A stretch of 64,000 nucleotides of DNA from Moniliella sp. 'wahieum' (Eukaryota > Basidiomycota > Moniliellomycetes > Moniliellales > Moniliellaceae), in contig RSEE01000143.1 of assembly GCA_003971905.1 (NCBI GenBank), forward strand, positions 62,001-126,000. The letters are read 5' to 3'. Within the stretch, counting starts at the first letter, position 1. Every line of letters starts with the position of its first letter. A model generated the notes under the pieces. It saw nothing but the letters and a program-made list of their open reading frames with translations. It was not told the DNA's origin and did not search any database. Made by a program: the position numbers and the translations under genes. Below, piece after piece: positions 9,228 through 33,817 of this stretch.

Positions 9228-9430
9228 GCAAAGCACCAGATGGCAGGCCAGCTCGGCAGGACAGTGACTAACTAAGCGTGAGCGCCAGTGGCTCTCGCAG
9301 AGCGAAGCATCAGAGAGCAGACGAGTTCTGCAGTAGTACAGTGACTAGTACCAGCTCGTTAGTACATTGACTCACTATAAGCGTGAGCGCCACAGTGGCT
9401 TTATCAGTTCGAAGCACCAGAGAACAGACC
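9228..9430 (+). repeat. Degenerate minisatellite, left copy (inverted relative to 32.6-32.76 kb)
   Basis: This consists of direct, diverged units of about 75-105 bp built from AAGCACCAG...CAGAC, GCTCGGCAG, GTGACTAACTA and AAGCGTGAGCGCC. The last element occurs at 9274 and again at 9379. The sequence 9266-9296 matches the reverse complement of 32679-32709 with one mismatch in 31 bases, including a 22-base perfect block (9275-9296 against 32679-32700). A MutS-homologue fragment follows directly downstream. Confidence 0.85.
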
Positions 9431-9779
9431 ACAATCCTGGAGGCTCAGCGGATGCCAGCCCTGTTCAGGGCAAAAGAGCCCTTAACTCCCTCATCTTGTT
9501 CACTTACATGTTACACCTCCTCAACAGTCTCCTCATCTGAGATCTGCAACCATTCAAGTGTTTCGACGTTCACCGCCGTTTCCAGCGTATAATTCAAGCT
9601 GTCGCACACGACGCCCCCTTCATGTAGCTCTTGGCTCAGGTCCTGTAAGTACGATGGATGACATTTTTGGTCGTCATGCGTGCCTGTGCAGCTTACTCAT
9701 CCGCCTTGTAGTTCCTGACATCCAATACGATGCGCGCAATGCCTTACGGTGTTAGGCAACCGGTATTGGTGATGGTCGT

Positions 9780-10292
9780 CTTTTGCAACCAAGCCTCGAC
9801 GTTTATGGTCGAGATGCTTGAGACGGACCGCATTGTGCAGCAGAGCACCACGCGCTCCTTAGTCCTCCTCGACGAACTGGGACGAGGCACATCGACATTT
9901 AATGGCCAAACAATTGCCTATGCCGCACTCCCCCATCTGCTCATGCGTATCCGCTGTGCATCGGATTCTTTCTGACCCACTACTCTTAGTTCTCTCGATC
10001 GCGCCCTTGCCTCTTCCCCATTAATGCGGCCTAGAAAGCTCAACAGGTCGCACGCTCCCTTTCCTGCTTGCACTTGGGAAGCCTGGCGGATTTTGCTTAC
10101 TTAGTTGCCCTGGCACAGCACGCCCCTCACGCAGATGCAGATGCAAACTCATACTCACACCCACACGCAGAAGGTGTACTACATGCACGTCATGCACCCA
10201 CACGTCGTCCCGAAGAGAAGCACGGGTCACAATCGTTCCGCGATAACCTGCTGCTGTCCCAACTGGAGGTGCTAAGGGAAGCGGCTCGATAA
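9780..10292 (+). pseudogene. MSH6: 3' fragment of a MutS homologue (probably MSH6): ATPase Walker B region
   Basis: The reading frame from about 9785 gives the MutS-family block [17 protein letters not shown], then [18 protein letters not shown] (Walker B, DE followed by the GRGTST loop), then [10 protein letters not shown] and a frame-disturbed FLTHY. A piece at about 10075-10100 reads LGSLADFAYL, comparable to the Msh6 segment after ATHY. The P-loop, clamp and lever domains that should precede it are absent: within about 350 bp upstream the sequence becomes minisatellite. D is replaced by N in the usual STFDG. Orientation is plus, whereas the MSH6 5' part at 33 kb is on the minus strand. 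The piece is partial and degenerate, and is unlikely to make a functional product. Assignment to MSH6 over MSH3 rests on THY/SLADFAY-like spacing and is tentative. Confidence 0.7.
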
Positions 10293-10994
10293 GTGCGGTA
10301 CCCAACAAACAATTGGCTCCTTAGTAGTGTAACCCTCCCCCCGCCTCTCCGCCTCCACCAGCCTCTAACCCGCCGATACGCATTTCGTTTCCTGTTCCTG
10401 TTCTTGTTCCTGTTCCTGTTCTGTTTCTTCTATACGTTAGCTTTGCTGTTGTTTCTGCCCCTCTCTGCTGTTGCGGCCCATTCCATCACCAATCACCAGC
10501 CACTACTAGTCACCACTTACCGGAGCTATCGTTATACCAATTACCAGTCACCCGTCACCGTGACGAGGGAACCTCTGATCGGATTTGAAGGGCAAAGATA
10601 GGCGGATGCAGTCGATAAAGGTTAATAACGGGCGTGTTGGAATGGGATATCATGAGAAGAAAGTGGGAGGTCGGGGGGGGGGGGGGGGGGGTAACGTGTA
10701 ATAGCTGATGAATTTAGTCCTTTGTCTAATTGATTGGAAATAAGGACAGTCCGGGGGAGGAACGAGTGGAGCGAGGGCAAATGGTGGTAGCAAAACTAGT
10801 TGGTCGAAGCGGGTTGAACGTTGAAGCCCCAAAGAGTCATTAATTCGTCCGTTTCTCATCCGTCTTTGATCATTTCGGGCGTCGTCTAAAAACAAAGGTG
10901 TTGGAAGGGATAAAGAGTAAGGTACTTAAGTACCAACAAGTGCCGTCGTGGCAGTCAGGCCTCGACCCGCTCATTGTCACGTCACGGTGACGCC
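10293..10994. repeat. Gene-free spacer with (TTCCTG)n and a G19 run
   Basis: About 700 bp without a supported gene. A TTCCTG-type hexamer tract lies at about 10385-10425 and a run of 19 G at 10673-10691. GTCACCGTGACG-type palindromes occur at about 10555 and 10977. Confidence 0.7.
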
Positions 10995-13900
10995 TTACGG
11001 GCTGGCAGCAGCAAACTCGACCAAGACGTCAATCACGTTGGTGGGGCAGTCGACGTGCCAATGGGCCATGGTCTTCTTGGTGGCTGGACCGACGGTGACC
11101 GTGTAGAGGCTGAACGAGGGAGAGTGGGAGAGTGAAGAGGTTCGAAGAAAGCAAAATGGGACTAACAGTACCGTGGTGCGAGCCCGGTCCACGAGCGGGG
11201 TAACTGCGTGCTACCGCCGTCTCCCATACGTGCGGAGCCAAGTCCTCTCCTCTCAGTTCGTGGGTAGTCTCGTTCCCCTCGTCCCATACGTCCACCTCAT
11301 CTTGAATCATGTTCTCCATCGTCTCTTCTTCGCTGTCGTCCCTAGGATCCAGGCGGTCCAGGCCGAGGGGGTTGGGCGCATCCGTTCTGTCCTCGTAGAA
11401 GCAACAGGGCGCATCTGTCTCGTCCCCAAGCTCGCGTCGTCCTTCGGACGGCGACACAGAGGGACTGCGTGGCCGACTGGTGAGATCAAGGGAGGAAAAT
11501 GCGTGGTGTAAGCTTTCCCCGGCTCGGTTGACGGCCATCAGTGCACGAAACATATCTTCGTCCGTCTTGTCGTCCCCGGCACAGAAAACGAACTGAGCAG
11601 AGGGATGAGCGGCCAGAATGCGCTTGACAATCTCCCCCTTGTTCACCGCCAACGGACGAACCTCGAGGTTTTTCTTGCCAACCATCACCTCGATGGGTAA
11701 ACTGTGGGCATCCAGCAAGTTTTCCAGGTGCGCTTGACACTCTTTTGCTTGAAACGAGCCAAAGTCCGGATCGGCATTCCGATAGTGCCACGTGATGGAA
11801 CTTTTCTTGTCCTCAATAGCTGAGCCCAACGTACGCTGGAAGAAGACAAGGACAGTGTTAGTATCTTTTCAGGTCCAACGCGATAGACCAACATCGAACA
11901 AACAGGTAATCATGACGATGTTGATGTGTGGGGAGACATGCATACCTCAGTGTAATACTCAAAGATGGCGCGAATGTCGTCTTTCCAAGAGAGATCAAAT
12001 TCGGTGGTACTGTTGATCCATGGCTCTCCTGCCCCAGGCTCTTTGACAAAGGAACCATGCTCAGCAGAAACCCAATGGTCGTCCAGATGACCCAAATGCT
12101 GGGTGAGGAAATGCTGATCGCGGCCGGAAATGATGAAAATCACATTGCGCGGATCGCCACTGAGTTGGGCCAACGTTTCAATCAAGCGCGGCGACGGCAA
12201 CGCCTTTTCCGGCACACGCACAATCGGCGTCAACGTCCCATCGTAATCCAACAAGATCAGCCGTTGACCACGTTGCCCCAAACACTCGCTACTGGCGCTC
12301 GCCTCCCCGGCTACCACCCAATCGGACTGGATCGCTTTCAGGTTCAACTCCGGGGTCAGATGCGAGGTTTGCTCCACGTGCAACAGGTGCACCATCTGAC
12401 GGATCAAAGTCGCGGCCCAGGTATGCGACGTGTGCAGTGTAACTTCGTCATAGGCGTGCCGGTGTCGCCACTCTTTCTCCTCTGAGCTGATGGTGAGCGC
12501 ATCGTTGATGGCCTTGGCCACTCCCCACGTGTTCCATGGGTTGACCTGGAACGCTGTGCGCAACCGACTTGCCGTCCCGGTAAACTCGGACAAAACAAGA
12601 GGTGATTTATTTCCGTACTGCTCTTGACAAACCACATATTCCATCGACGTCGTGTTCATTCCGTCCCGAACCGACGTGACCAGCGCCAAGTTGGCCACAC
12701 TCAGCAGAGCAAATATTCGTCCGATCAATAATCTGATGGTAGTGGTGGACTGGGCAAAGGACAAGGTGCCAAACTCAGAGTTGATTTGCGACACGAGCTC
12801 GCTCACTTCCCGCTCTAGCGCTGGGGAATCGTGCACGGCAGGAGAGGTGACTTGAATCAGAACCACGTTGCCCCTCCACTGGGGATACTCGTCGAGCAGT
12901 TTCTTGAATGCTTGCATCTTTTGCAGCACACCACGAACCACGTCCAGCTTGTCCCGACCGACGATGATTTTTTTGCCCTGGTACATCCGTCGGAAACCTT
13001 GGATCTTGGTCTCTACTCCGGCCGACAGAGCTTCTTTGGCGATCCGCGCCGCGTCCATGCCACCGGGTTGTAACTGATCGTAACTTGGCCATTGAGAGAT
13101 TCGACTGTATTGAACGAGACGTCGAAGCCGCAGCCACGGATACAGGAAGACAAAAAGTGACGCGAGTAGGAAAACGCTTGAAAGCACGCAAAGTCAGCCG
13201 AGCATCCCTTGCAGAATCTCCGTCCGCTTGGGCAGACAACGGAATACTTCGCTCGAGGGAAATGGCGCATGATAAAACGTAAGTGCGCATCCGGAACCAA
13301 CTGACGCAGCATCTTGGGCACCAGAAGTAGGTGGTAGTCGTGAACAATGATCATGTCGCCTGGCTGTACTCCTGCGCAATCGTTCTGCAAACACTTGATT
13401 CGTGCACATACGTGTCCCACAACGTCGAATCATCCCAGGTGGAAGCGTTGATCGGATTGACATCTTCCACAGCAATAGTGCAACAGAGGCCAGAGCAACC
13501 GTTTTGCAGTACCCCTCGTAAAAGCGTGGGCTACCTCCGAGTCCATCCAGACGGGTACGTATTTGATCCCATACGCCTCCTCGCCATCGAGGCGCTCCTG
13601 TTCTTCCAACTCTTCTTTTCTCTCTTCTTTGGCGGCGGAGGTGGCAGTGCGGAAACACTTGTACAACCGAGATGCAAGGAACGACTCGAGCCCAGTCTTG
13701 GTCTTGATGGAGCCGACGGGCTCCACTCCAGAGTTCTGCGGACTGGGGGATGAGGTGCCATGACCTGGACCAGGGGGCAAGTCCGAGCAGACCGATCCCA
13801 CCCGTTCCAGATCACTGAGAACCTTCTCGATCTGAGCCTTCTCGTCGTCAGACAGCTGCTGGGCCAATCCGGTGCGCAACTCAGCTTGCGACTTGGCCGC

Positions 13901-15458
13901 AAAGTCAATGTCGCCCGGCCAGCCAATGAAGGTTTGCTTATGCGTCAGACATAGGCTGCGTACTCCGCTGTGAATAGCTTTGTGTCCACGACGAGGTGAT
14001 AATACCCACTGTTGGGAGGGGAGCACGCCATCCATTGGCTCTTTGACCGTGTCAGTGGCTTTGTAGCCGGCTGCTACTGAGGCAGAAGAGGCATCCGTAG
14101 AGCACCGCAGCCCAGAGGAAGTGGCGGGGGGGCATTGGCTTGCCTCCACTTCAGTGCACAAGTCGGTGGGAGGAACCCGTGCGTCCTGCCTATCTCCCGT
14201 CCCGCCACAAGATAAATGGGAAGAGCCGGGATCAACCTGGTCCAAGCTCTCGGGGGTATCTAGTGGCGTAAACCGGTCCTTGAGTTCATCCGCTTGTACC
14301 CCCGACTCGTCATCATCCATCATTGGAGGTTCCATCCAAGCCCGGCGGCCGGCATGGGCCTTGGCCCGTTCCTGGTTCTGACCCAACAGAGCATACATAT
14401 CTTGCCCCTCAAAACCATGAAGCGCCGTGTGCATGTCGGCCGCCCCGTCGCTCTTGTCCTTATTGAGTGCGATCAGGCCGAGCCCCGACTCAGATCTCCT
14501 TACAGGCATGTCGGTCAGACCTGCTTGAGCGCATCCATTGACCGCGCTCAGCCCCCCCGCTCGATGGGCCTCGGTATCGGAAGACAGAGTAGCTACACTC
14601 CTGCGGCCTCCGTCGCGCTGTGCCGGGACCCGGTCCGATTCCCCCGGCACCGGCATGCACAACGAAAGGGATGAAATGGCTGACGTGAATGATGCGCCCC
14701 GAGAGCGATGGATGGTCGGTCTGACTAGAGTAAGCTTGTTCCAGCTCGGCGAGCGAGGCACGGATCTGACTGATCGTCTCAAACTGCGGCCCGTCCGCAT
14801 CGTCAGCAGGGAAAAAGGGAGACACATCAACCCCCTGTGCTAGACTTTCTACACTGCTCCGGTGCCCACGGCTTGCCATGCTGGCTCGGCTGGCGCCCCA
14901 GGCAGACGGCAGAAGCGGCGGTGCAGAGGCAGCGGGAGACGCAAGTAGGCTCGAGGTTGCCTGCGAATCTTGCGGCCACGCCAGCGGCGCAACAGGCTCG
15001 TCCGTCAGGGTAGGCGAGGGCGGCGGGACCGGTGTTTGAGCATCGGGCAGAGCGGCGATGGATGGGGGGATAAGCGAACTCTGGGGCGCATGGTGGGAGC
15101 CATGTGTGTGATGCGATGGACCCTGGGGATGGAGGGGCTGGGGTTGCTGTTGGGACTGGGATTGGAATTGGAATTGGGACTGGGACTGGGACTGCCTTCG
15201 GGTGCGGTGCGAGCGGCCCTCGCCCCCAGTTCTGGTAGGGGAAGAGAGGCCAGGAGACGGGAGAGGCAATGATTGTTTGGCCATGCGGAGGATGTGGCCA
15301 GGCGCCGGCGGGAAGAGCTGGGGCTCCTCGGCGTACACTCCTGGCGCCAGCAATGATGTTCCGCTGCTGTGCTTGGCCTGGGCACTGGGCACCAGCAGGA
15401 GGGGTGGGATGGCATGGGAGGGGAGGGGGTGGTGGGGGCGGAGGGGAGGAGAAGAAGA

Positions 15459-15490
<32 letters not shown>

Positions 15491-15494: not shown

Positions 15495-16436
15495 CGCAAA
15501 CTGCGCTGGGCCGAATAGCCAAAGCTCGTTTAGCAGGCTGCCAGAGCGCGTCAGGAGGCCTGTCGGCGGAGCGCCCAAAGTACAACACTGCAGCCACATG
15601 CAATGGGCCAGTGTGCAAGCACCGCGCGTGCATCGCTGCCCCCGTGCCCGTCCCCCCTGCCCCTGCAGCCTGGGCGCATGGCTGCCCCTGGCTCTCACAC
15701 CTCCCACCCATCATGCATCACCCTGCCCCCCACACGTGCGCACTGCGGCTGGTATATGTGGGCACACGCGGCAGCTAGAGCCCGCACCCCCTCCAGATTC
15801 CCTCCTACTCGCACCATCCTTTGCCGCCGCAACCGCTCCAGTGGGTAAGGTCACGGTGACCGTTGGCCACATCAGACCTACCATACAGCCACGCCCGTGC
15901 CATGCCTTGTCTATTAACACCCAACACGGCATCCCATCCAGCGAGGCTGGTCCTCTCACGAGCTCTTTCTCGCTGTTGTTGTTCTTCCAAAATCCTCCCT
16001 CCGTGTGCGTATATCTGGGCTCGACGGTCCCCAGCCCAGTCTCAGCTAGTAGCCATATACCCCAAAATGAGACCACCATTCCGTTGGACTATACGCGCAG
16101 GTTTACATTCTTCAAGTTGATGTGCAATGCTGTGAATATTGAATCCAGATGGCACTCTGAAACGTCATTGTAGCTTGAAGCTTGAAGCTTGAATCTTGAT
16201 ATGGTCTCGCGGTCGAATCTGTTGCTAGTTTTATACACGCCGACGCAGCCAATAAGGGCCCATTTACCCCACATTATTCTCTCCCGAGGGTGAAACCCAA
16301 GGCGGGAGTGAAATTTTATTGGGGCACACGCCCCACCTTCCGGCAAAGCAACCAACATTGCTGCCGGCCGAGCTGGCTCGAATAGCCTTCGCAGCCCAAC
16401 CATATCTCTCGCATCCCCCGTTCCTCGTCCGCCAGC
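15495..16436. promoter_or_regulatory. Divergent spacer between TPS2 and the thioesterase gene
   Basis: About 940 bp that must hold the promoters of two divergent genes. A GTCACGGTGACC palindrome sits at about 15850, and short AGCTTGAAGCTTGAAGCTTGAA direct repeats at about 16173-16195. No stress-response element is clear enough to call, and I see no gene. Confidence 0.4.
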
Positions 16437-17393
16437 ATGCCGCCGCTCTTTCTCTCCCGTGCTTCGGCTCCCCAACAGATGCGCCTCTTCGCCTCCGCAC
16501 CACTCCGCTCGTTTGCTTCTGCGCCTACGTCTCCCCGTCCCCCCCCTTCCTCACCCCGGCGTCGAGTCGGGGCCACCAGCGTGCTTGCGGCTGGTGGCGC
16601 CCTTGCGCTGGGATATGTGCTGGGCGCCTTGTACCCTCCCGATGTAGCTAAGCTTGCATCTCCCCGTACTGCGCCTCCCCGTCCCCCGGCCGACTCGGAA
16701 GAAGGCTTAGCGATCAGCCGGCAGGTTGAAGCTGATCTTCATGCTCTGGCGCTCGTCAAAAACTTGCAAAGCCGCACTTCCCTGCCGCAGGAGCGCGACG
16801 AAGATGGGGATGTGGTAGTGGCGGATACAGCAGAGGGCGGACAGAAAGCGGCCAATGCTCATTATCGCCTAACCCGTCCGTACGCAAAGTACCCCGAGGA
16901 GAGACGGCGGCACAATTTGACAGCAGGCACCCTTCGTGGACCTGGGCTCTTGGCTGCCCCACCCATCGTTCTCACCAAAACTGAACATGGCGCCGCTATG
17001 GAAGGTGGACACGCAGGGGACTCAACCATCTTGCTGCACGTGGGCCGTTCTTTGTGTGGACATGACGGCGTTGTTCATGGTGGTCTGCTTGCCACACTGT
17101 TTGATGAGGGCATGGCCCGCTCCGCATTCCATGTCCTGCCCGCTCACATTGGCGTAACAGCCAATCTTCAAGTCAACTATCGCTCACCTACATTTGCAAA
17201 TCAGAACATTGTGCTCCAAACATACATCCAACAAGCCAAAGGACGCAAGGCGGTCGTTACTGCTACACTGTCTACCATTGACGGACGGCTTTTGGCCGAA
17301 GCGGAAGGCGTATTCGTTCAACCCAAAATGGCATCGTTCCTCAACACGAGCCTGATCCAGGAAATCCTGGAATTGGAACCTAATTCGTCATAG
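16437..17393 (+). CDS. Hotdog-fold acyl-CoA thioesterase, probably mitochondrial and membrane-anchored
   Basis: A single-exon 318-residue protein with an intact frame. Residues 1-45 are Arg/Ser/Ala-rich with no acidic residues, as in a mitochondrial presequence. A hydrophobic helix follows at about 48-66 (VLAAGGALALGYVLGAL). The C-terminal third is a PaaI/THEM4-like hotdog domain with the hallmark HDGVVHGGLLATLFDEGMAR, the VNYRSPTFANQNIVLQT strand and an AEAEGVFV terminus. Family members hydrolyse acyl-CoA thioesters; the Asp/Glu of LFDEGMA is the likely catalytic acid. A long linker holds GRSLCGHDG, which contains the GHD element seen in fungal homologues. Substrate is unknown. Confidence 0.87.
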   Translation: MPPLFLSRASAPQQMRLFASAPLRSFASAPTSPRPPPSSPRRRVGATSVLAAGGALALGYVLGALYPPDVAKLASPRTAPPRPPADSEEGLAISRQVEADLHALALVKNLQSRTSLPQERDEDGDVVVADTAEGGQKAANAHYRLTRPYAKYPEERRRHNLTAGTLRGPGLLAAPPIVLTKTEHGAAMEGGHAGDSTILLHVGRSLCGHDGVVHGGLLATLFDEGMARSAFHVLPAHIGVTANLQVNYRSPTFANQNIVLQTYIQQAKGRKAVVTATLSTIDGRLLAEAEGVFVQPKMASFLNTSLIQEILELEPNSS

Positions 17394-18334
17394 GGACCTA
17401 TTGGGGCGGGCATGTGCGCTCCCGACCTAGGTCAAGGCGCCTTTACTGTGATCACTTTTTGGTCCCCTCTTGATCACTTTTTGGTCCCCTCTTTGATCTC
17501 CAGAACAAACAGTCTACTTATACGCTACACACACTGGCTTGTTATGACTTACATATGCGTCTCCTCTGGCAGGTGTAGCATGAAGCTACTAATGCACAGC
17601 CCATGCTCTCATGGGCGCTGACGCTGTATTAGTCGGGCGCAGCAGGAAGGGTTCTGCCTAAGACTGGACGCAATGGGCACAAAGCATCGTACCGATGAGC
17701 CCATGCGACCATGGCGGGCCGCGGATGGTATCCGCAGCATGGATAAGGTGTCGACTGGCTCTCTCTCGCTAGCCTCACAGGGCTGACGCGTGTTGCGCTG
17801 AGATATCTACAACATGCGGGGCTCAGCGTCCGAAGATAACCGGAGCGCCCCGTAACAGAGAGGGAGCGTGGTGGGGAGCAGTAGGGTCAGGCGCACGGAT
17901 TACCGACTGATGAGACTGGGTGCCATTGGGAGGATCCTCGCCGATCGATCATCGATCATCGATCAGGGAGGGAGGTGGATCAGGTGGATCAGGGGGTGGA
18001 TCACACTGAGAACGATGGATGACTCGGGGATCTGTTAGGCAGGCAACCTCCGAGGTCCGGAGGCTCAGGCCGGAGGAGGGCCGTGCGAGGAACCCTAACC
18101 CTACCCGCTCCCACCGTGGGGCTGGCTGCCGAGTTGAGATCTGACCGGTGACTCATCTGCCGCGCCGGATTCCGATCAGTTAAAGACCCTGCCTCCTCTT
18201 GCGCATTGCCTCCTGTATCCCTCTCCTCTGCACCACATCCTGCACTCTCCTCCCTCCTTCAGCAGGACCCAACAAGAAGCGCCTCGGGCTGCTAGAAGAG
18301 GACTGGTGCTGATTCGGAATCCCCTGCTACCACA
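17394..18334. other. Intergenic region with a direct repeat and hairpin-rich segment
   Basis: No coding sequence is supported. A direct repeat GATCACTTTTTGGTCCCCTC occurs twice at about 17451-17493. GATCATC units tandem at about 17942-17966. A telomere-like CCCTAACCCTA of under two units lies at about 18090. The segment 17650-17865 is unusually rich in short hairpins and is listed separately. Confidence 0.6.
17640..17865. ncRNA. Candidate structured RNA (unassigned)
   Basis: Several hairpins fall in succession: GCGGAT-GGT-ATCCGC near 17720; CATCG-TAC-CGATG enclosed by GGGC/GCCC near 17675-17705; AGCC-TCAC-AGGGCT near 17774; and a longer pairing of GGGGC...GCCCC near 17818-17852 that encloses TCCG/CGGA. 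I could not match it to U1-U6, SRP, RNase P/MRP, U3 or 5S signatures. Strand and ends are not determined, and it may simply be GC-rich spacer. Confidence 0.25.
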
Positions 18335-19312
18335 ATGACGACCTCTGTGTGTGTGTTTTGCGGCTCGTCGCCGGGAAACAAGGATGTCTACGTCCAGGTG
18401 GGCCGGGCGGTCGGGTCTGCCTTGGCCCAGCGCACCATGCGCCTCGTATATGGTGGGGGACACAAGGGAATGTACGCAGAATGCTGCCGGGTGCGGGGGG
18501 TGGATCTATGATCGATGGGTGTGAATACGCAGGCGGAGGCGGAGGCGAATGCTAACCTGTTCTGACTTGACTGGGCAGTATGGGCGCAGTTGCAGCGGGA
18601 GCAACGGCCAAGTCAGGCAAGATCCTGGGCATTGTCCCGGACGCCATGCTTGCCAGCCCTCCCAAGGGACATCCGGATCCTAACCCCCTCGGTGCCCGCG
18701 CTGGTCCTACCACCCCCGCGTCCACCTCAGCCGAGGGGACCGGCAAAACCCTGCTCGATACGTCCAACTCAAGCGCTCTTGTTGAAACCATTTTGGTGGA
18801 TTCGATGCACACGCGCAAGCTCCGCATGGCCGAAGAGTCCAACGCCTTTATTGTTCTCCCGGGCGGTTTCGGCACGTTCGAAGAAGCTTTGGAGATGATC
18901 ACTTGGAATCAAATTGGCCTTCACAAGAAGGTACGTGCAGTGTTCAATTGCCTTTCACTATTGACTTTGGACACCTTGCGTGTCTTCCCTAGAACCAAGG
19001 CCTTTGGGGAAAGACATTGTGGACTAACATTGTGGATGTACTTGCTTTGCCTAGCCCGTGATCGTGGTCAATGTCGAGGGCTTCTTTGACCCCTTGGCGG
19101 CCCTGGTCAAGACTGGCATTGAACAGGGGTTCATCCCTCCTAGCAGTGCCAGCATTGTTCGCTTTGTGACTTCTGCCCCTGGCGACACGCCTGAGCAGTT
19201 GGCACAGGATGCCATCAAGGCCGTAACCAACTTGCTCGAGCAGATTCGGTATTGGGACGGAGGCTATTGGTCGTGGCAATCCAAAGACCAGACTAAGGCC
19301 AAGAAGGCGTGA
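18335..19312 (+). CDS. LOG family cytokinin-riboside 5'-monophosphate phosphoribohydrolase-like protein
   Basis: Exons are 18335-18471, 18579-18930 and 19055-19312, with introns of 107 bp (phase 2) and 124 bp (phase 0). Splicing rebuilds the motif YGGGHKGIMGAVA exactly. The product (about 248 residues) is a Rossmann-like enzyme of the former 'lysine decarboxylase' group, with the LOG signature: RKLRMAEESNAFIVLPGG followed by GFGTFEEALEMITW (PGGxGTxxE). Family members cleave ribose 5-phosphate from N6-modified AMP or related nucleotides, so a role in cytokinin release or nucleotide salvage or clean-up is plausible. The insertion after IVPDAMLASP (about 30 residues, Pro/Thr/Ala-rich) is longer than in plant LOGs. 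The frame is clean. Confidence 0.92.
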
Positions 19313-19996: not shown

Positions 19997-22049
19997 ATGC
20001 TGGCGATGGGCCATGGGAGCTGGCGGTGGTTTGCGCAGCCACCCCCCCGTTTCTGTCAGGCTGCTCGCCGCATCTGCACCACTGCGCTAACCAGCCATGC
20101 TTCGACTCCATACCCCATCACGCTACACACCCCGGCCGACATTGCGCGCGACTGGGGCGTCAGCCTAGCCTCGAACGAGCTTGCCTACTGCGAAGGAAGC
20201 AGCTTTGTCGTCTTTCCGTCTCTTCACCCCGGAGCAGGATCCAGCGCTGGTACCCCCCAGGCCACACCTTTGAGCCACCAACGTTTCTCAATCCAATCCA
20301 AGAGTTCAACCGCGATCTATCGGTCTGTGCCATCCGGGCTTGGTGGCAGGACGCTCAGGCTGAGGCGGACCTACGAGCGATCCGGCGCGACAGGAGAGAT
20401 GGTGCAAAGGACAGGCCAGGTGGGTGTGCTGATGATCCTGCAGTGCCTTCGTTTTCGGTTTTGGAAGCGTTTGCCGCGACGGGCTGCGCAGTATTCGGTA
20501 TGCGAAGGAACTCGACGGTGTTCGCTCCATCTTGGCCAACGATCTCTCTTCCTCGGCTGTGGCGGCGATGCGAAGAAATGTGGGACTCAACTTTGCTTCT
20601 TCTCCTTCGCCCATTCAGATTACCGAGGAGGACGCGATGAGCCTGCTGTATGCTCATCGAACCCAGAAAATGGGGCGGTTTGACGTGGTGGATCTGGACC
20701 CCTATGGCAGCTGCTCCATCTTTCTTGATGCGGCACTTCAAGCTGTTGCCGACGGAGGGCTGCTTTGCATCACCTCAACCGACATGGCCATCTTGGCGGG
20801 GGCCGAGTTCCCTGAAAAGACGGTGAGTCAGTATGGCGGGGTGAACGCGCCGTGCGAGCATAATGGCGAACTGGCACTCCGATTGCTCTTGCATGCCATC
20901 ACCTCTGCCGCGGCCAAATACGGCCGCTCGGTTGAGCCTTTGCTCTCGCTCACGATTGACTTTTACGCACGCGTGTTTGTGCGTGTGCATAGCTCGGTGG
21001 CGCAGTCCAAGTACGTTGCCGCCCAGACCGCAGTGGGATGGACGTGCCATTCTTGTGGTCACCACGCACATCTCCCTCTCGTTCGAGTCCGTCCTGGTCC
21101 GCCAACCAAATCTGGACAGCGCCAAGTCCGCTTCGGAGCTGGTACCCGTCCCCCCGTCGGATCGCATTGCGATCAATGCGGAGGTAATTATCTCCTCTCC
21201 GGACCGTTTTGGACGGGGCCACTGCATGATGCTAGGTTTTGTCGACACCTGGTGCGTGAGGCGGTCACACGCCAGAACCGTCTCAACACCGCTGCTCGCA
21301 TTATCGGCATGGTTACGACCGCCGGCGATGAGTTGGGTACCTCGAACCATCGCGATGACAGCAGCCAGGGGCAGGGCCAGGGACAGTCGTTATCCGTTCC
21401 TCCTGGCACTGCAGCCTCGTTTCGTCCTGGTGAGCAGGTCGACCGGTTCGGATGCTTGACCATCTCGTCTGAGCGCAGCTTGTTTTACTTTACCACCACC
21501 AGCTTGATCGCTGCTGCGTTTCACGGACCAGTGGCTCCTCTGAGCGTGTTTGTCAATGCCCTGCTGCATGCAGGCTACGACGTAAGCCGATCCCATTGTG
21601 AGACCAACGCACTCAAGACCAATGCAAGCTACGCCCAAGTGTTGGATCTGTACCGTTTCTGGCTTCGCCACAAGCAGGACCAACAACAAGCCAACGAGGG
21701 TCTTAGCTCTCCTGGCTCTCTCGTAGGCAGGATGATTGAGCCGGGAAAGGGGGCGCGGGGCCAATCTGCACGAGGCCCCGCCTCACGACTCAGTGCGGTT
21801 CCCATCCAACGACACTGGTCTCTTGATGCCCATCCTGCCACGAACCAAATCTTGGCCCCGGCCTTACCCACGGGGCCGGGCGCTCCCGTCCTCGAGCAGA
21901 GGGAGGGGGATTCCGACACAAAAATGGGCACCAAGCTGGCAGCTCCTAGCATGGTGCGGTACCAAATCAACCCCAAAAACTGGGGAGCTGCCAAGGCGGC
22001 CAAGGTGGCGCGCAGCAGCAACCTGCCAACAACGCCCAACCAACACTAG
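19997..22049 (+). CDS. TRM1: tRNA (guanine26-N2)-dimethyltransferase Trm1
   Basis: This enzyme makes N2,N2-dimethylguanosine at position 26 of tRNAs in nucleus and mitochondria. Visible in order: an Arg-rich start (MLAMGHGSWRWF), NPIQEFNRDLSV, the SAM motif VLEAFAATG-LRSIRYAKE, DVVDLDPYGSCSIFLDAAL, TDMAILAGAEFPEKTVSQYGG, a zinc-binding pair CHSCG...CDQCGG, GPFWTGPLHDARF and a basic C-terminal tail with QINPKNWGAAKAAK. Two frame breaks occur, between about 20225 and 20290 and at about 20487 (GACGGGCTGCGC lacks one base of the expected Gly-Leu-Arg codons). From 20532 to the stop the frame is open. The start at 19997 gives a plausible mitochondrial presequence; an ATG at 19937 is an alternative. 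Confidence 0.93.
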
Positions 22050-22556: not shown

Positions 22557-23207
22557 ATGTAAGTGCCTCACTCTTGGTCTCACTCTTCGAAACGGAGGCG
22601 GGGCGCGATGCGTGGGGATGGGCATGACGGGATAGGCATCTTGTCCTTGTTTGTGTTCTTTCCCCCGCCCCCCGGCTGGATGGGACGCCTGCTCGGATGC
22701 GCCCCCCTCAAGAGGGACAGGAATGGTGGTGCTGATCCAGAACCCGTGTGATGCAGGGACTCGTACGACGCTGCTGAGGCGGCTGCGCTCAAAGCCCGCC
22801 GGACGTTCAAGAAATCCTACTACCGCGGGATTGAGCTGTCCAAGTTGCTCGATCTGAGCAACGAGGAGTTTATGGGCATTGTGCACGCCCGTGCTCGTCG
22901 TCGCTTCCAGCGTGGCCTGAAGCGTAAGCCCATGGGCCTCATCAAGAAGCTGCGCAAGGCGAAGCAGGAGGCCCCTCCCAACGAGAAGCCCGCGCTCGTC
23001 AAGACCCACCTTCGTAACATGATTGTCGTGCCTGAGATGATTGGCTCGGTCATTGGCATTTACACCGGCAAGGTGTTTGCCACGGTGGAGATCAAGCCCG
23101 AGATGGTGGCCCACTACCTTGGCGAGTTTGCTATGACCTACTTGCCCTCCGCCCACGGACGGCCTGGTCTCGGTGCCCAGGCAGGCCGGTTCATTCCTCT
23201 CAAGTAA
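22557..23207 (+). CDS. RPS15: 40S ribosomal protein uS19 (S15) with an intron inside the start codon
   Basis: Exons are 22557-22558 (AT) and 22757-23207, joined across a 198-bp GTAAGT...CAG intron so that AT|G forms the initiator and the protein begins [18 protein letters not shown]. The 150-residue product is the small-subunit head protein uS19. Family blocks are [73 protein letters not shown] and the C-terminal QAGRFIPLK. There is no alternative in-frame ATG upstream of these residues in the second exon until the internal Met in EEFMG, which would remove conserved sequence. The 3' exon has no frame break. Confidence 0.94.
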
Positions 23208-25915: not shown

Positions 25916-28900
25916 ATGGCGTCCGTGTCTGTGCCGCCTGCCACACCCACACCCACTCCGGCGCTGCCCGGCCTCGACGCATCCGTCGCCAACGCATTTA
26001 TCGACCATCTCGTCCATCTCACCACCTCCCTTACCCGCTCCTCGCCCCCCCCCAACCGCCTGCCGCTCATAACCATGAGCATGACCAGGACCATGACCAG
26101 GACCATGACCAGGACCATGACTCCAATCCCCCTCCCGCCATCCTCACCCTCATCACCCCCGCCTCCCCCGAGCTGCCCCTCACATTGGATACATCCCCGC
26201 CACCCTTTGCCACATCCCTGTTGACCGGCGACGCCCGCACCGCCCGCATCGAGACAGCCATCCGCGACCTCCACCACCGTCTCATCGCCTCCGAACGAGG
26301 TCACACGTCCCATCTCCCTTCCTCCCATCGGCGCCGCCACGCTCCCCTTCCCTTCGAGCCCGCACCTCCCACAGTGCAGGGCCGCCAACGCTTCCTCCGT
26401 CCTCTCCTTCCGCCCTCTCGTCCCATGCTGCCCCTCTGCCTCGATCTACCCCACCGGCTACCATGACTGCTCCTTCTCCAGCGGACGCTGCTAGTTCTAT
26501 CTTGCCCAGCTCGGCCATGCGCTGCAAGTCGTGCGGCCGCCGGATGTCAACGGCATTTCCTTACACGGTCTCACGCGCACCCCCTCAGAGCGAAGAATTC
26601 CTCTTTCTTACCCTCTCGCCATGGGCCCAGATGGGACCCCCTGTTGTTAGCCGGTGGCGTCCGGCGACGGAAGAAGCGTACCCGTTCCAGCGCCACGCAT
26701 GATGGCGACTCGGAACGTCCCCCCGCTCGTAGTGGCAGTGGTGTCGGCGATGAGGTTGGCTCGCATGAATATGAGTGGGAATATGGGCTCCCTCGCCCCA
26801 CTTCGTCCCATTCGGCCAGCCAATCTCATTCATCTGCGATGCGACGGAAAAACTTGTCGGATGGTTGGTCTGGTCTTCGCTCCTCCACCCTCAACCCCAG
26901 TGTTACTGGCTTGCACCGCACCACTACGCCAAGTTCGATTCAGACACGGGTTGGTATCGAGGTCCCTGACGAACTCTCGGAGACAGGCTCGCGCTCCTCC
27001 TTTGTCAACTCGGATGAGGACAGTGATGCAGTTGCCGATCCCATTGAGGCGTTCGGCGTTTGAGCGCTATTCGGACGAGTCGGGACTGTCGGCGCAGGAG
27101 GAACTGCGACTGCTCAAGGCGCAAGTGCAGGATATTGCTCGTGTATGCAAGGTAGGTAACCCTCTTTCCCGTCCTCCGTCCGAAACAAGATTTGAGTTGC
27201 TGACGTTGTATTCACTAGGCCGTTGCGTTTGGGGACCTGTCCCAACACATTACCATCCCCGTTCAAGGCCATGTCATGGTCGAGCTCAAAGATATCATTA
27301 ACCAGATGGTCGACACACTCTCCGAGTTCACCAAGGACGTGATCCGGGTATCGCTTGAAGTGGGTACGGAGGGCAAGCTGGGTGGTCAAGTTCAGACCCA
27401 GGGCGTGCAAGGCCGCTGGAAAGAACTGAAAGAGGTGGTAAACAAGTTGGCCATGAATCTCACTGAGCAAGTGCGGGGTGTTGCGACTGTAACCAAGGCA
27501 GTGGCTCGAGGTGACTTGTCTGAGAAAATTCACGTTGAGGCGGACGGAGAGATCCTCGAGCTCAAAGTCACCATCAACGTTATGGTCGAGCAACTGCGCC
27601 ACTTTGCCAACGAAGTCACTCGCGTTTCACGCGAGGTGGGTGTACGCGGCCAGCTGGGAAGCCAAGCCGTGGTCCCGGGTGTCAAAGGTGTTGGAAGAGC
27701 TTGACGGTGAACGTGAACCGAATGTGTTACAACTTGACCGAACAAGTCCGGTCCATCGGCATGGTCACTACTGCCGTCGCCAATGGCGACCTGACGCGTT
27801 TCATTGACATTGAAGCCGAGGGAGATGTTGACGCTGAAGGATACAGTCAACTCTATGGTTGCCCAGCTACGCATCTTTGCATCCGAGGTGGTGCGCATGT
27901 CGATGGAAGTCGGAACGTACGGGAAACTCGGGGGCCAAGCACTCGTACCCAATGCTGAGGGAACCTGGAAAGATCTCACGCAGAGCGTCAACAAGATGGC
28001 GGACAACCTGACGTCCCAAGTGCGGGAAATCGCTCGCGTGACCAAGTGCGTGGCCGAGGGCGTTTTGACCGATACATCAACGTTGACGCCAAGGGGGAAA
28101 TCCTTGACCTTAAACTGACTGTCAACAATATGGTGCGTCAACTCAACACCCGTCGGATGAGATCATCCGCGTCTCGGTAGAGGTGGGTACGGAGGGACAA
28201 CTCGGTGGCCAGGCGCACATCATGGGCGCAAAGGGCCAATGGCAAGTCCTTTCGGATGCTGTCAACGTCATGGCATTCAATCTCACAACGCAGGTGCGGT
28301 CCATTGCCGAAGTCACCACCGCGGTCGCTAGGGGTACCTGAGCAAGACAATCTCGGTCGATGTCCGCGGGGGAGATCCGAGACCTAAAACTTACTGTCAA
28401 CGCCATGGTCAAGTTCTTGCGCACCTTTTCGACCGAGGTGATTCGGGTCGCTCGGGAGGTGGGCACAGAGGGCCGTTTGGGTGGCTATGCCACGGTTTCT
28501 GGTGTGGGGGGCACATGGAAGGACCTGACCGAGTCCGTCAACACCATGGCCGGCAACCTGACCCTGCAGGTACGCACCATTGCGCATGCTACGACGGCGG
28601 TGGCGCGTGGCGACCTTTCGCAAAAGTCACCATCTCGGTATCGGGTGAGATGTTAGTAGATTTGGTTAATACGATCAACAACATGATCGATCAACTCTCC
28701 TTTTTTGCATCAGAAGTCACTCGTTCGCACGGGAAGTGGGCACCGAGGGACGCCTGGGCGGACGTGCACAAAAGAAGGATGCCAAGGGCAAGTGGGCGGA
28801 GATTACGGACAATGTAAACCAAATGGCGTCCAACTTGACGTCGCAAGTGCGTGCGTTTGCCCAGATCACAGCCGCTGCGACCGACGGGGACTTCTCTCGC

Positions 28901-31022
28901 TTTGTCACTGTCGAGGCATCGGGGAAATGGATTCTCTCAAGACAAGATAAACCAGATGGTCTTTGGTCTGCGCGACTCGATTCAAAAGAACCGCCGCTCG
29001 AGAAGCCGCCGAATTGGCCAATCGTTCCAAGTCCGATTCCTTGCCAATATGTCCCATGAGATCCGCACCCCGATGAACGGCATCATTGGCATGACCGCCT
29101 TGACACTGGAGACTGAATTGAGTCGCAGCCAAAGGAAAATTTGTTGACCGTTCGAGTTTGGCTGGCAACTTGCTGGCCATCATTGACGACATCTCGACAT
29201 TTCGAAGATTGAGGCTGGTGAATGACGGTGGATGAGGTTCCATTCTCGTTGCGGGGCATTGTGTCACCATCCTCAAGACCTTATCGGTACGTGCGACGCA
29301 GAAGAAACTCAACCTCCTCTACGAGGTGAGCCCCGACTGCCCTGATGCGCTTATTGGGGATGCGCTTCGCCTCAAACAGATCATCACCAACTTGATTGGC
29401 AATGCGGTCAAGTTTACCGAAGCCGGCGGGCACGTTTCGCTCAAGTGCCGTTTGACAGAAGTGGTGACGAAAATGAGTTCAAGCTCGAGTTTTGTGCTTC
29501 CGACTCGGGCATTGGCATCAAGTCGGAGAAGTTGGACTTGATCTTTGACACCTTTTGCCAGGCCGATGGTTCTACCACGCGCAAGTACGGTGGCACCGGT
29601 TAGGACTCAGTATTTCCCGTCGCTTGCCAACTTGATGGGGGGCGACTTGTGGGTCGAATCGCAGTACGGCCATGGGTCTGACTTTTCTTCTTTACCATGG
29701 TGGTTAAGCTTGATCGCCAACTGCTCTCTCCCGCTGTGCTGGCCAAGAAAGTCGAGCCGTACCGCGGTCGACACGTCCTTTTCCTTGATATGCTACACGA
29801 TACCACCGGCTTGATACCATGCTGCTCGACTTGGGCTTCAAAGCGACCACATGTCATTCCGTAGAGGAGGCTGCCAAGTTGGTCCATGCTGAACCTCAGC
29901 CTCGCCGTCGCAGCGGCCCAGCAGCGGGGGCTGACCGAAATCCTCAAGTGCTTCTGGTCTTTCCAAGATTCAGACCCAACCGGACGGCGCTGGCTTTTCG
30001 CACGGCGCGTACCACCCCATTACGATCCCCAGTCCGCATATTCGTCTACTCTTGATGCCCTCCTGGGTACGACGTGTCAGACTATGGCGCGATGGACCCA
30101 TGGCAGCTGTCTGGCGCTCATCCTACCGGGCCAGCGCGGTGTTAGATTCCCCCGCTTCGCCCACACTCTACTTCTAACTCTATCACCTATCCCCACGCCT
30201 ACCCTTACCTCACCCACGAGTCCCAGCACGGTCCCCCTTCTACCACCCGATGGACCCTCGAAGCCCGTGGGTCGTCGCCGACGGACGCTTACGCGCAAAA
30301 AGACGGAGGAGTATCCCCATATCGACGCCATCCTCGTGATTCGGTCGCGGCAGTGGAAGCGGTGAGAGAGGTGGAATCCTTGCGCTACATTCGATCAACC
30401 TGATTATTCCGCAGAAGAGCAACGTAACATGACCCTGCTCTGGACCGGGGGGTAGTTTCATGTACGACGAAACCAATGACCGCGAGTGGATTTGTACAAT
30501 GCGTTGTACCTTCGCTCGAATCGTCGGCCATGGTGCGGTCGACGAAGGCGGGTCAGAGGCCCCTATGACATTTTGCTCGCCGAGGACAACGAGGTCAACC
30601 AAAATTGGCGTGCAAGATGCTAGAGAACAAAGGACATCGTATCGAGGTGGTCCAATGGTGCCCAAGCCGTTCTTTCCGTCAAGGGAGCAAACCGTACGAT
30701 GTGATCTTGATGGACGTTTCGATGCCGGTCATGGGTGGGATTGATGCTACGGTGGCCATCCGTTCGTGGGAAGCAAAGATGGACCGAGAACCAGTCCCCA
30801 TCGTCTTAACCGCCCATGCCGTTAGGCGGACAAGGGTACGTATATATCTCTACCTTCCTTGCAGCTGGCCGTCTTGCTCCCTTTTGTACCTGGTACTAAC
30901 CTACTCCCCTCCTGACCCGAACCTCTCAAAGAAAAAGTCTGGAAGCCGGCATGAACGGGTACGTGTCCAAGCCAATTCGACGCAACGAGCTCATGACCAC
31001 CCTGCGCAATTGCTCGCCATAA
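25916..31022 (+). CDS. NIK1: Group III hybrid histidine kinase (Nik1/Os-1/Hik1 type) with tandem HAMP repeats
   Basis: This is a cytosolic osmosensing kinase acting upstream of the HOG MAPK cascade and the usual target of phenylpyrrole/dicarboximide fungicides. The N-terminal 300 residues are low-complexity, with a His-Asp repeat near 26060-26120 and Ser-rich sequence. From 27219 come seven HAMP-type repeats with a roughly 92-residue period, each with (R/N/D)GDLS and REVGTEGxLGG-like cores. Next are the H-box [20 protein letters not shown] (29040), N-box [14 protein letters not shown] (29380), G boxes [14 protein letters not shown] and GGTG, a degenerate receiver (HVLFLDM), and the true receiver with [23 protein letters not shown] and [10 protein letters not shown]. 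An intron lies at 27152-27218 and another at about 30836-30931. At least 12 single-base frame breaks interrupt it; all catalytic residues survive, so error is likelier than decay. Confidence 0.9.
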
Positions 31023-31784
31023 ACCCACCGTGGCTTCCCGAACTTTACGCTCGCGCGGGACCGGGAGCGCTGGCGAGGGAAGCACAGGCCCTCGTTCCAT
31101 CTCCACCGTCTGTCTGAAGCCTTATCATCCAAGCTGTTTCGGACGCGGTAGCCATGGCTGCTGCCACCTCCATCTCTTCAAACCGTCCGCGTTGTAGCCG
31201 CCAGGCGAACAGCATGAAAACTGTATTTTTCCCTCCGGGCGGATCAGATCAGTTCCCCCTCCCCCTACCGCTCCATGCATCGCCCTCGTCTTTCCGCCTG
31301 AGTGCAATTGTTGGGGATTGTGGGGATGTTGGGGATTGTTGGAGGATTGGTGAGCACTGCAAGGGGTTGTTGGAGGTTGGTGGGATTACTTGGTTCCAGC
31401 AGATCCGCGTCGCTATCCACCCTTTTTTTTGTGTTATGCCACCGCCTTCTTCTGGCGTGGGCGTTTGATGTCGTGTGCCCTGAGTCTTGATCGCTTGATG
31501 CCTTGATTTCACTTCCCTAGCCCGTCCGGCGCGCCTGGAGTCATCGATGTTATCGCCGTCCAGATGGGCTCATCCGCGAAGCGGACGTTGCCTGTCTAAT
31601 ACTGTACCTGGCACCCACTACGTACGCACCTACATGGTGGTGTCCACATGTCCCCATGGCCCCCTGGCCCCAACCACCTCGGCCTGGACTTGCTTGCATT
31701 GCACGCTCCCCGAATGCGTGATACATCATGTGCTGATCAGGAGTGACTGGATGTTTTCCTTCTGCATCTCCTACTGTTCTATCC

Positions 31785-32238: not shown

Positions 32239-32362
32239 GATGGGATGTCATGGGATGGGAGTCATGGGATGGGATGTCATGGGAGGATGGGATGGGATGT
32301 CATGGGATGGGATGGGATGGGATGGGATGGGATGGGATGGATGGGATGGGATGGGGTGGGAC
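32239..32362. repeat. (GGGAT)n minisatellite
   Basis: Tandem GGGAT/GGGATGTCAT units, with a perfect core of about eight copies at 32303-32345 and interspersed TGTCAT variants before it. Confidence 0.95.
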
Positions 32363-32609
32363 GCGCGACGTGAGACCCTGGTGAATGGGGAATCGCGACT
32401 GGGTAGAACCTGGTACGGGGGATCTGCTACCAATACTTCCCCTGGGACGGGAGTGAAGAAAGGACTCGGAGGTGTTGAGGCAGGGATAGAGGAACAAAAC
32501 CAAAGACAACAATAATCTGAAAAAAAGGAACAGGAGCCTACCTTTATCACGTCCGCGGTCCAAAATTAGCAAAGAGGAGTGAGCTAGTGAGAAGTGAGAA
32601 CTGAGAGTG

Positions 32610-32760
32610 CAACCGTGCTCACGCTGAGTTCGTCAACGCACTGCCGATCAGGCCTGCTCTCAGGTGGCTTCTCATTGAGAGAGCCACTGGCGCTCACGCT
32701 TGGTTAGTCAATGTACTGCCGAGCAGGTCTGTGCGCTGGTGCTTCCCACTGAGAGAGTCT
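32610..32760 (-). repeat. Degenerate minisatellite, right copy (inverted relative to 9.23-9.43 kb)
   Basis: Read on the minus strand this carries the same elements as the left copy in the same order: AAGCACCAG, CAGACC, GCTCGGCAG, TACATTGACTAAC, AAGCGTGAGCGCCAGTGG. Two partial units are present. It starts about 10 bases past a possible splice donor at the end of the MSH6 5' fragment. Confidence 0.85.
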
Positions 32761-32771
32761 CTTGGGCTCAC

Positions 32772-33817
32772 CTCGCGTCACCAAGGCGCCGTCTTTATTA
32801 AGCCCCTTACCAGCAAGCATGCCACGCGCCACAGCCGTCTCACATTGGTCCACGCGCCCCACCTTGTATCCGAGGCGCGAGGAACTTGGCTGCAAACAAG
32901 TCAAATGAGCTTTCCGGGACGCCGACCGTCTTCATTTTACGCGGTCGGTCAGCTTGAGATCAAATTCGCGATGGCCAATGACTGCGTCCTCCTCGTACAG
33001 TTCGTAAAACTTGCTCTTCTGGAAGAAGAGCACGGTGTCGTAATGGTCCTGCTTGATGCGCCAGAATTGCATTTCAAATGGAGAGAAGTCATCCCATGCC
33101 GAGGGCGGAATGTAGAGCGTACGCGGATCGTAATCAGGATCGTCCGGATGACGCCCATCTTTGTCGCGAAACCTCAACGAGGAACGAAAAGGGTTGCTCG
33201 GCCCAAATCGGTGTGGGCAAAGGACGCGCCGCGGGGGTCTACTGATCGAGTTAGTGCAACGCATTCAGGCATTATAGTGGTGGTGAGGGGGAGGAGAGGT
33301 GACGACGCACCGAACGTGGTAGGGACGGGTGAGGAGCTGGGCGTTGGCTGGTGCCAGTGCTGGGCGGGGAGTGTTGGCAGGGGCAGGAGGGCGCAAACGG
33401 AGGGCGTAGGTTCCAGCCTCTCTTCATCCGATTCGTGATCGCTAATTACGACATTTGGGCGCTTGGAGACCTGGTACGAGGCAGTGGAGGGGCGCTTGAG
33501 ACGTTTCGGCAGCTAGTAAGCAAGTAATACATGTCCGAACCATCCATCTGGGACAGAGGGCAGGGACACACTGATTGGCCATCGGAAGAGAAGGCGGTGC
33601 GGATGAGACCAGGTCGGGGGGCGAGTGGGGGAGGTGAGGCGGGGAGAGGAGCCAGAGGTTGCGGAGAGGGGTGGGCGAATGGGGGGGCGGATGGGGCTCG
33701 GCCGCGCGGTGAATGCGGGGGGCGGCCGGACGACGGCATGGGCGCGACGGAAGCAGGCGTGGTGGGGACTGTGCCAAAGAAGCCCAAGAGCGACTGCTGC
33801 TGGCTTTTGGGCGGCAT
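32772..33817 (-). pseudogene. MSH6: 5' fragment of MSH6: PIP box, mismatch-binding domain, start of connector
   Basis: The fragment starts at 33817 with MPPKSQQQSLLGFFG, a PCNA-binding QxxLxxFF box at the extreme N-terminus as in Msh6. A Pro-rich linker follows, then the MutS domain I block [39 protein letters not shown], the Phe-x-Glu mismatch wedge in [63 protein letters not shown] and ALVTR. It then meets a GTGAGC donor-like site at 32771 and runs straight into minisatellite. Frame breaks lie at about 33450, 33200, 32930 and 32890. Domains II-V (roughly 700 residues) do not follow in this orientation. The missing 3' end may be partly represented at 9.8-10.3 kb on the opposite strand. Confidence 0.85.

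Follow-up and report, generated by a model that had tools for sequence, protein, structure and literature searches.

Repeat sequences have been linked to genomic rearrangements in several eukaryotes. In Candida albicans the rearrangements associated with repeats include inversions, predominantly at inverted pairs (Todd et al. 2019, PMC6591007). In humans a polymorphic inversion of 415 kb disrupts the gene ZNF257; it was ascribed to end joining, and a fusion transcript was detected (Puig et al. 2015, PMC4591017). Inversions involving the Drosophila transposon Galileo have been ascribed to ectopic recombination (PMC2775673). A repeat-linked inversion that breaks a gene is an event of known kind. 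In this study we describe a fungal locus at which an inversion of some 23 kb, from roughly 9.3 to 32.7 kb, appears to have broken the mismatch-repair gene MSH6, a reading to which we assign a probability of about 0.73. The analysed stretch of 64 kb (the window) lies on contig C143 in an assembly of 69.5 Mb. Searching the literature by topic, we did not find an earlier report of this case.

The repeats described for C. albicans, also a fungal genome, measure 65-6499 bp (PMC6591007), a range that covers the arrays on C143; those are long repeats compared among clinical, environmental and evolved isolates, whereas C143 has a short tandem array and is compared with old paralogous segments within one assembly. 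As at ZNF257, one break of the proposed inversion lies inside a gene, at repeat blocks of low identity, but the human inversion is larger, is polymorphic and was ascribed to end joining (PMC4591017). With Galileo the locus has in common dispersed repeats at the breaks; Galileo is a transposon (PMC2775673), whereas the repeat on C143 is a 74-bp minisatellite array beside which a search, not a systematic one, recognised no transposon.

Two MSH6 pieces beside inverted minisatellite arrays

The original prediction, made from the window alone, held that a 5' part of MSH6 with a PIP box and the mismatch-binding domain runs leftward to a minisatellite, and this was borne out (Table 1). Pfam MutS_I matches the minus strand of the piece in an open frame (positions 2-48 of 113), its PDB matches are MSH6 chains only (two of two distinct sequences), and near its start lies QQQSLLGFF, common to the MSH6 genes of contigs C8 and C23, which we take to be the PIP box. 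DNA homology to C8 and C23 covers window positions 33823-32813, and protein homology to C8 continues to 32773, against the array.

The second piece had been described as a Walker B fragment running rightward from about 9780. Strand, domain (MutS_V positions 56-113) and Walker B agree with that description, but the fragment does not directly follow the array: about 360 bp separate the two, most of it filled by an antisense HSP70 fragment. Decayed traces of homology go on from the 3' piece to about 10330. A PDB comparison of its 87 amino acids did not tell MSH6, MSH3 and bacterial MutS apart. Among the MutS genes of the genome itself, the best DNA matches are the MSH6 genes of C8 and C23 (76% over 231 bp), those on C132 and C122 being weaker (72% and 71% over about 150 bp), and the neighbouring TPS2 is also shared with C8 and C23. 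The piece is MSH6 and not MSH3, as had been proposed.

The 5' and 3' pieces do not overlap, and a deletion inside the gene did occur as predicted, but comparison with C8 (491227-493014) puts the missing middle at about 595 codons instead of some 700 residues. Walker A belongs to this middle: the alignable part of the 3' piece begins beyond its position, and the exact Walker A pattern, present in C8 and C23, is absent from all frames of the window. Lacking Walker A and the greater part of the protein, the remnant cannot make a working MSH6. With only Walker B kept and the ATPase domain incomplete, the C143 gene is, judged by its sequence, a predicted pseudogene. The argument for a pseudogene draws on the loss of the middle and of Walker A and on the multi-base gaps within the decayed 3' piece; frameshifts in the window were set aside as proof, single-base indels in the assembly being read as sequence errors.

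The claim that the same minisatellite lies beside both pieces in opposite orientation also stands. The arms (85 nt, 82% complementary) are 23,358 nt apart and form the longest of the six inverted pairs of at least 30 nt in the window. Read in the sense of MSH6, the two arrays have the same direction, in keeping with recombination between inverted copies.

Table 1. Features of the window around the broken MSH6 locus (window coordinates)
Feature	Position	Strand	Basis or remark
Left flank anchor: COX4 (+) and phosphoribosyltransferase-like gene (-, under Pfam's cut-off)	4206..6110		pair reversed beyond NIK1 on C32 and C180
Left minisatellite array	9224..9430	+	inverted relative to right array
Decayed HSP70 fragment, C-terminal part	9535..9774	-	between left array and MSH6 3' piece; matches at three places on C21
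MSH6 3' piece: part of MutS domain V with Walker B (DELGRGTS at 9871)	9789..10019	+	Pfam MutS_V, DNA homology
TPS2-like gene (GT20 + trehalose phosphatase)	10998..15400	-	adjoins MSH6 on C8 and C23 too
4HBT thioesterase	16404..17393	+	other copies on C3 and C45
LOG-type gene (Pfam Lysine_decarbox)	18571..19089	+	
TRM1	20436..22049	+	adjoins RPS15 on C3 and C45 too
RPS15 (uS19)	22752..23207	+	
NIK1-like kinase gene (HAMP domains)	26514..31196	+	on C32 and C180, window's left flank comes next
Right minisatellite array, about 74-bp unit, 2-3 units	32600..32771	-	abuts MSH6 5' piece
MSH6 5' piece: PIP-box-like start, linker, beginning of MutS domain I	32773..33823	-	Pfam MutS_I, PDB MSH6 chains, DNA/protein homology to C8 and C23
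Right flank anchor	35487..41973		genes colinear, reversed, upstream of MSH6 on C8 and C23

Gene order on paralogous contigs

Before an inversion of this block, the order would have been left flank, NIK1, RPS15, TRM1, thioesterase, TPS2, MSH6 and right flank, with one break inside MSH6 and the second separating NIK1 from the left flank. On C8 and C23 the window sequence from 42 to 33 kb appears reversed, followed by MSH6 in one stretch and by the sequence from 9.8 to 15.4 kb in forward direction; MSH6 thus sits there between TPS2 and the window's right flank, the arrangement that the prediction gives for the uninverted state. On C32 and C180, NIK1 (window 26.5-31.2 kb) is followed by the sequence from 6.1 to 4.2 kb, reversed. 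The predicted neighbours are thus seen at both breaks, on two contigs each, in paralogous segments of the same genome, and both window junctions therefore look derived. A prediction of gene halves, strands and repeats made from one window was in this way largely borne out by other parts of the same genome.

The two uninverted halves lie on different contigs, however, C8/C23 for the MSH6 break and C32/C180 for the NIK1-left flank break. The window's next genes are absent from the 9.8 kb of C8 beyond TPS2 and from the 8.1 kb of C32 that precede RPS15, which calls for at least one more rearrangement. The proposed 23-kb inversion with breaks in MSH6 agrees with the neighbours at both ends, but a second rearrangement has to be assumed with it. 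Of the predicted content of the segment, TPS2, the thioesterase, LOG, TRM1, RPS15 and the NIK1-like gene were found, but the block is a mosaic whose parts sit on different contigs elsewhere. No TPS2 match was found beside the thioesterase copies on C3 and C45, and a genome search found no second copy of the LOG-type gene. COX4 lies about 24 kb beyond RPS15 on C3 and C45, on the side predicted for the uninverted order. The predicted order is not seen in all copies, however: relative to RPS15, COX4 on C3 and C45 is on the opposite strand from that on C32, and on C10 copies of the NIK1-like gene, RPS15 and COX4 are about 100-330 kb apart. The NIK1-like gene, whose response-regulator match falls just under Pfam's cut-off, is a family member, and C10 and C56 match it equally by identity (78%) over a shorter stretch (2.8 vs 4.7 kb). 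The left-flank methyltransferase (7.5-8.3 kb) could not be placed, as the one match obtained elsewhere is weak (36%, E 4e-4). Either junction has a wide gap in homology, from 6.1 to 9.8 kb at the left one and from 31.2 to 32.8 kb at the right one.

The likely agent would be recombination between two oppositely oriented copies of the dispersed minisatellite, the first within MSH6 and the second in the stretch from NIK1 to the left flank, with the loss of the MSH6 middle and an HSP70 fragment left at the left junction. This builds on direct observation of both MSH6 pieces and the strands they lie on, of the inverted arrays and of uninverted neighbours, on two contigs for each junction. From these we infer a single inversion, recombination at the arrays, and an interruption of MSH6 before or in the same event. 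No array was detected at any of the four uninverted paralogous sites, whose separation from C143 long predates the event: they reach best local scores of 16, 16, 16 and 18, where five letter shuffles per site give 12-20 and the window arrays 84 and 111.

Competing explanations

An unlikely path, though one that would leave identical window junctions, dispenses with the inversion altogether. Two blocks on different chromosomes, X (TPS2-MSH6-right flank) and Y (thioesterase-TRM1-RPS15-NIK1-left flank), would have swapped ends at minisatellite copies, and a later exchange would have joined TPS2 to the thioesterase side. The genes of X and Y are indeed on different contigs in the other copies found. 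However, the second of these interchromosomal exchanges would by chance have had to land no further than about 6 and 16 kb from the first pair of junctions, and, although the inversion path also takes two events, only one of them is interchromosomal, which is an argument from priors.

We consider it quite improbable that C143 was mis-joined at the repeat arrays and that the true chromosome has the same gene order as the other copies. The assembly does contain numerous likely single-base indel errors (C8 and C23 differ over 2.7 kb of conserved MSH6 by 25 indels, 20 of them of 1 bp, and by 30 substitutions), and the minisatellite family is dispersed over at least 43 places, both window arrays included, in a hand merge of match lists. 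Yet the arrays span only about 170-210 bp, which is short for long reads (their use was guessed from the indels), and neither the multi-base gaps of the decayed 3' piece nor the interposed HSP70 fragment would be made by a mis-join. Nor was a third copy of the missing MSH6 middle noticed among the MutS_I and MutS_V matches, which were not assigned singly.

That the pieces are unrelated partial duplicates, placed independently, is hardly credible. In favour of it, about 595 codons are absent between them and foreign sequence precedes the 3' piece; against it, the 5' piece keeps the right flank and the 3' piece keeps TPS2, in the order and on the strands of C8 and C23, and they share no overlapping part.

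Redundancy, age and the minisatellite family

The window copy had been taken as the MSH6 of this genome, a view not supported by C8 and C23, where all parts of a structurally complete MSH6 lie in one stretch. Because of these copies the C143 gene is redundant, an old duplicate and third paralogous copy, whose loss would be tolerable; they also rule out the loss of MSH6 as a whole, as in a mutator lineage. When a mismatch-repair gene is apparently lost, duplicates should hence be checked before a mutator phenotype is claimed. C8 and C23 are about 95% alike, and both are 71-76% alike to the window in MSH6 and TPS2. No allelic partner of C143 was seen in those genome similarity searches whose match lists include C143 itself.

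As assembled, the MSH6 genes of C8 and C23 are not single open frames, and we read their single-base indels as probable sequence errors. In TPS2 the two contigs differ by 19 indels over 3.7 kb, 11 of them of 1 bp, and in a spacer of 0.5 kb by 8, of which 3 are of 1 bp. Since it is C23 that has the deletion in 22 of the 25 MSH6 indels, against 7 of 19 in TPS2, the C23 gene could itself be decaying.

We saw no relaxation of selection on the MSH6 remnants. Their NG86 dN/dS was 0.20 (239 codons, 95% bootstrap 0.12-0.29) and 0.14 (94 codons, 0.08-0.27) against C8, and 0.20 (0.10-0.32) and 0.18 (0-0.34) against C23, next to 0.30 (C8) and 0.20 (C23) for TPS2, in blocks picked by similarity and hence biased toward conserved codons, some TPS2 blocks possibly being in a wrong frame. 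Measured against C8 or C32, dS was 1.01 and 1.27 for MSH6, 1.18 for TPS2 and 0.96 for the phosphoribosyltransferase. The Duc1-domain gene of the right flank gave a dS of 0.49 (dN/dS 0.30, 251 codons), which speaks against a single age for all genes. The COX4 value of 0.48 mixes genes and frames and was left out of the timing together with the Duc1 value. As an ohnolog comparison, limited to the window segment, these values are not uniform (about 1 vs 0.49), and the partner genes are spread over three or more contig pairs.

Rfam and tRNA scans of the window gave no matches. The sequence was assigned to a fungus from RPS15, for which the best PDB chains are 7r81 and 7olc, from the ribosomes of Neurospora and Chaetomium, and from the types of genes present.

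In the loci scanned, the minisatellite arrays span 105-536 bp; with no larger element recognised beside them in the same unsystematic search, we rejected the idea that they are part of a transposon. It is rather improbable that the minisatellite is an active recombination hot spot or mobile array that has repeatedly broken gene order and left many scars, the MSH6 inversion among them. If the family were to mark other breaks in gene order, it would offer a tractable system for recombination between short repeats in a duplicated fungal genome. Among 11 array loci compared (two of them one place), some pairs have common flanking DNA. The pair on C55 and C7, 88-94% alike, looks like alternative copies of one place.

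Divided and undivided copies of MSH6

The window takes up bases 62001-126000 of contig C143 (132,911 bases) in an assembly of 69,493,810 bases and 223 contigs. Its two MSH6 pieces, 23 kb apart, face away from each other. The 5' piece matches MutS_I and, among PDB chains, only MSH6, and the 3' piece is part of MutS domain V. The original prediction was right in the coordinates and strands of both pieces and in the inverted arrays beside them. Its further claim, that the MSH6 of this genome is split, is not supported, since there are other copies. Across the genome, MutS_I has 9 profile matches and MutS_V 21. The best counterparts of the window pieces were found at C8:490.2-493.4 kb and C23:170.4-173.5 kb (71% for the 5' piece, 76% for the 3' piece). 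There MSH6 forms one stretch with no large insertion and with Walker A and Walker B, although as assembled neither copy is a single open frame; the C8 frame tested had PDB MSH6 as its best match. About 595 codons of C8 (491227-493014) have no counterpart in the window. The window copy, judged from its sequence, cannot work now, since it lacks Walker A, the core and most of domain V.

Coordinates of features at and around the junctions
Feature	Location	Strand	Remark
MSH6 5' piece	window 33823-32773	-	MutS_I
MSH6 3' piece	window 9789-10019	+	partial MutS domain V
Left minisatellite array	window 9224-9430	+	~74-bp unit; contains arm 9224-9308
Right minisatellite array	window 32600-32771	-	~74-bp unit; contains arm 32667-32751
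Decayed HSP70 C-terminal fragment	window 9535-9774	antisense	between left array and MSH6 3' piece
NIK1-like gene, then reversed left-flank pair	C32:504.7-509.3 kb, then 513.2-515.1 kb		
NIK1-like gene, then reversed left-flank pair	C180:6.3-10.9 kb, then 16.8-18.7 kb		
Methyltransferase gene	window 7525-8316		
LOG-type gene	window 18571-19056		
Dispersed ~270-bp repeat	window 17588-17858		in inverted block
Dispersed ~230-bp repeat	window 52706-52934		
Stretch adjoining ~230-bp repeat	window 52951-53107		

Gene order at the two breaks

On C8 and C23, MSH6 has the right flank of the window (35.5-42.0 kb), colinear and reversed, on its upstream side and TPS2 (window 11-15.4 kb) on its downstream side, so that the order there is right flank, MSH6 5', MSH6 3', TPS2. 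These contigs seem to be two versions of the same region, with 95.9% and 94.8% identity in two long matches (12.2 and 7.0 kb) and 83.7% in another match of 0.6 kb. The NIK1-like gene (window 26.5-31.2 kb), which encodes a kinase with HAMP domains, is followed on C32 and C180, ~4 and ~6 kb on, by the left-flank phosphoribosyltransferase and COX4 genes, reversed. This is the junction that inverting 9.3-32.7 kb would destroy. Both junctions, each present on two contigs, fit with one inversion in C143, and we regard an inversion of ~23 kb, as originally proposed and now backed by evidence that the original proposal lacked, as the best account (probability about 0.73); the proposal is qualified by the fact that the uninverted neighbours of the two breaks sit on separate contigs.

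Confidence is further reduced by the COX4 strand on C3/C45, the layout of C10, the NIK1 family and uneven dS. TRM1 and RPS15 are adjacent both on C3, at 1181.8 and 1184.2 kb, and on C45, at 370.1 and 372.5 kb. The same contigs carry the thioesterase ~80 kb away and COX4 ~24 kb beyond RPS15, on the predicted side and on the strand opposite to that of C32. No NIK1-like match on C3/C45 was among the matches listed, and no TPS2 match was found there; TPS2 matches lie on C8, C23, C43, C51, C129 and C14, with weaker ones elsewhere. On C10, copies of the NIK1-like gene, RPS15 and COX4 are ~100-330 kb apart. C8, read up to 508.0 kb, had no matches beyond window position 15.4 kb, and C32, read from 485.0 kb, had none to window 16-22 kb ahead of RPS15. 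It follows that a further event joined TPS2 to the thioesterase in C143. From these placements we infer either a fusion followed by an inversion or, instead, two exchanges; the inversion is preferred because one local event yields both junctions together.

Gene-breaking inversion at repeats is a known kind of event. PMC6591007 describes fungal inversions that lie at inverted repeats, and PMC4591017 a gene-breaking inversion in humans; the C143 event would share the inverted repeats with the former and the broken gene with the latter.

Minisatellite arrays and mechanism

No inverted repeat in the window is longer than one of 85 nt (82% complementary), which has one arm in each array. The right array adjoins the start of MSH6, whose homology stops within a few bases of it, and the domain V part lies rightward of the left array. 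A search of the matching sites on C8, C23, C32 and C180 did not detect the arrays (best local scores 16, 16, 16 and 18, against 12-20 for five letter shuffles each and 84 and 111 for the window arrays), so that the C143 lineage probably acquired them itself. Under independent, uniform random placement, two given points would each fall within 500 bp of one of 43 arrays with a probability of ~4e-7, a figure computed after the arrays were seen, including the two of the window and taking an array count that is at least 43.

Recombination may have taken place between an array inside MSH6 and another, in inverted orientation, that separated NIK1 from the left flank. Read in the MSH6 sense both arrays run in the same direction, as expected from such recombination. 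Array and HSP70 debris now occupy the place of the MSH6 middle and would have come there before or during the inversion; the HSP70 fragment matches three HSP70 genes on C21 at 69-75% DNA identity, over stretches of 116-214 bp. A similar picture would result from end joining that captured debris at the junctions, with no array recombination. The three C21 loci (L047, L048 and L049; 265-277 kb), genes or pseudogenes ~83-89% alike, lie within ~12 kb.

Age, sequence quality and contig context

Against C8 or C32, dS was 1.01 and 1.27 for the MSH6 pieces, 1.18 for TPS2, 0.96 for the phosphoribosyltransferase and 0.49 for the right-flank Duc1-domain gene; the COX4 value, 0.48, mixes genes and frames. 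Values this uneven do not demonstrate equal age. The dN/dS of the MSH6 remnants (0.14-0.20, a rough estimate biased toward conserved blocks) suggests that selection acted on the window copy through much of the period after duplication and that the break came later.

In the 2.7 kb of MSH6 compared, C8 and C23 are separated by 30 substitutions and 25 indels, 20 of them 1 bp long; the counts are 53 substitutions and 19 indels (11 of 1 bp) for 3.7 kb of TPS2, and 20 substitutions and 8 indels for 0.5 kb of spacer. Single-base indels in genes are taken as mostly assembly errors, and single frameshifts carried no weight. The deletion is in C23 for 22 of the 25 MSH6 indels (C8:490.8-493.6 kb, C23:171.1-173.8 kb) and 7 of the 19 in TPS2; the MSH6 skew may reflect either uneven sequence quality or incipient decay of the C23 copy.

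No telomere repeat was seen by eye in the 400 bases at either end of C143, and DNA and protein searches whose lists include C143 itself gave no near-identical partner contig. C143 might be collapsed, hemizygous or accessory. Other loci occur as contig pairs (C8/C23 ~95% alike, C32/C180 90-93%, C3/C45 with parallel positions). No second genome copy of the LOG-type gene was found, and the methyltransferase has one weak match only, although the neighbours of both have several copies. The gene content of the window is fungal: the PDB ribosome chains closest to its uS19 are ones we take to be filamentous-fungal, and it includes the HAMP-domain kinase gene. The ~270-bp repeat, 88-91% identical at no fewer than 20 genome places, also occurs on C180, where it lies between NIK1 and the left flank. 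The ~230-bp repeat is 86-91% identical at 27 places or more, and a few further matches are weaker or shorter; for the adjoining stretch, C32 and C180 gave short matches at the protein level.
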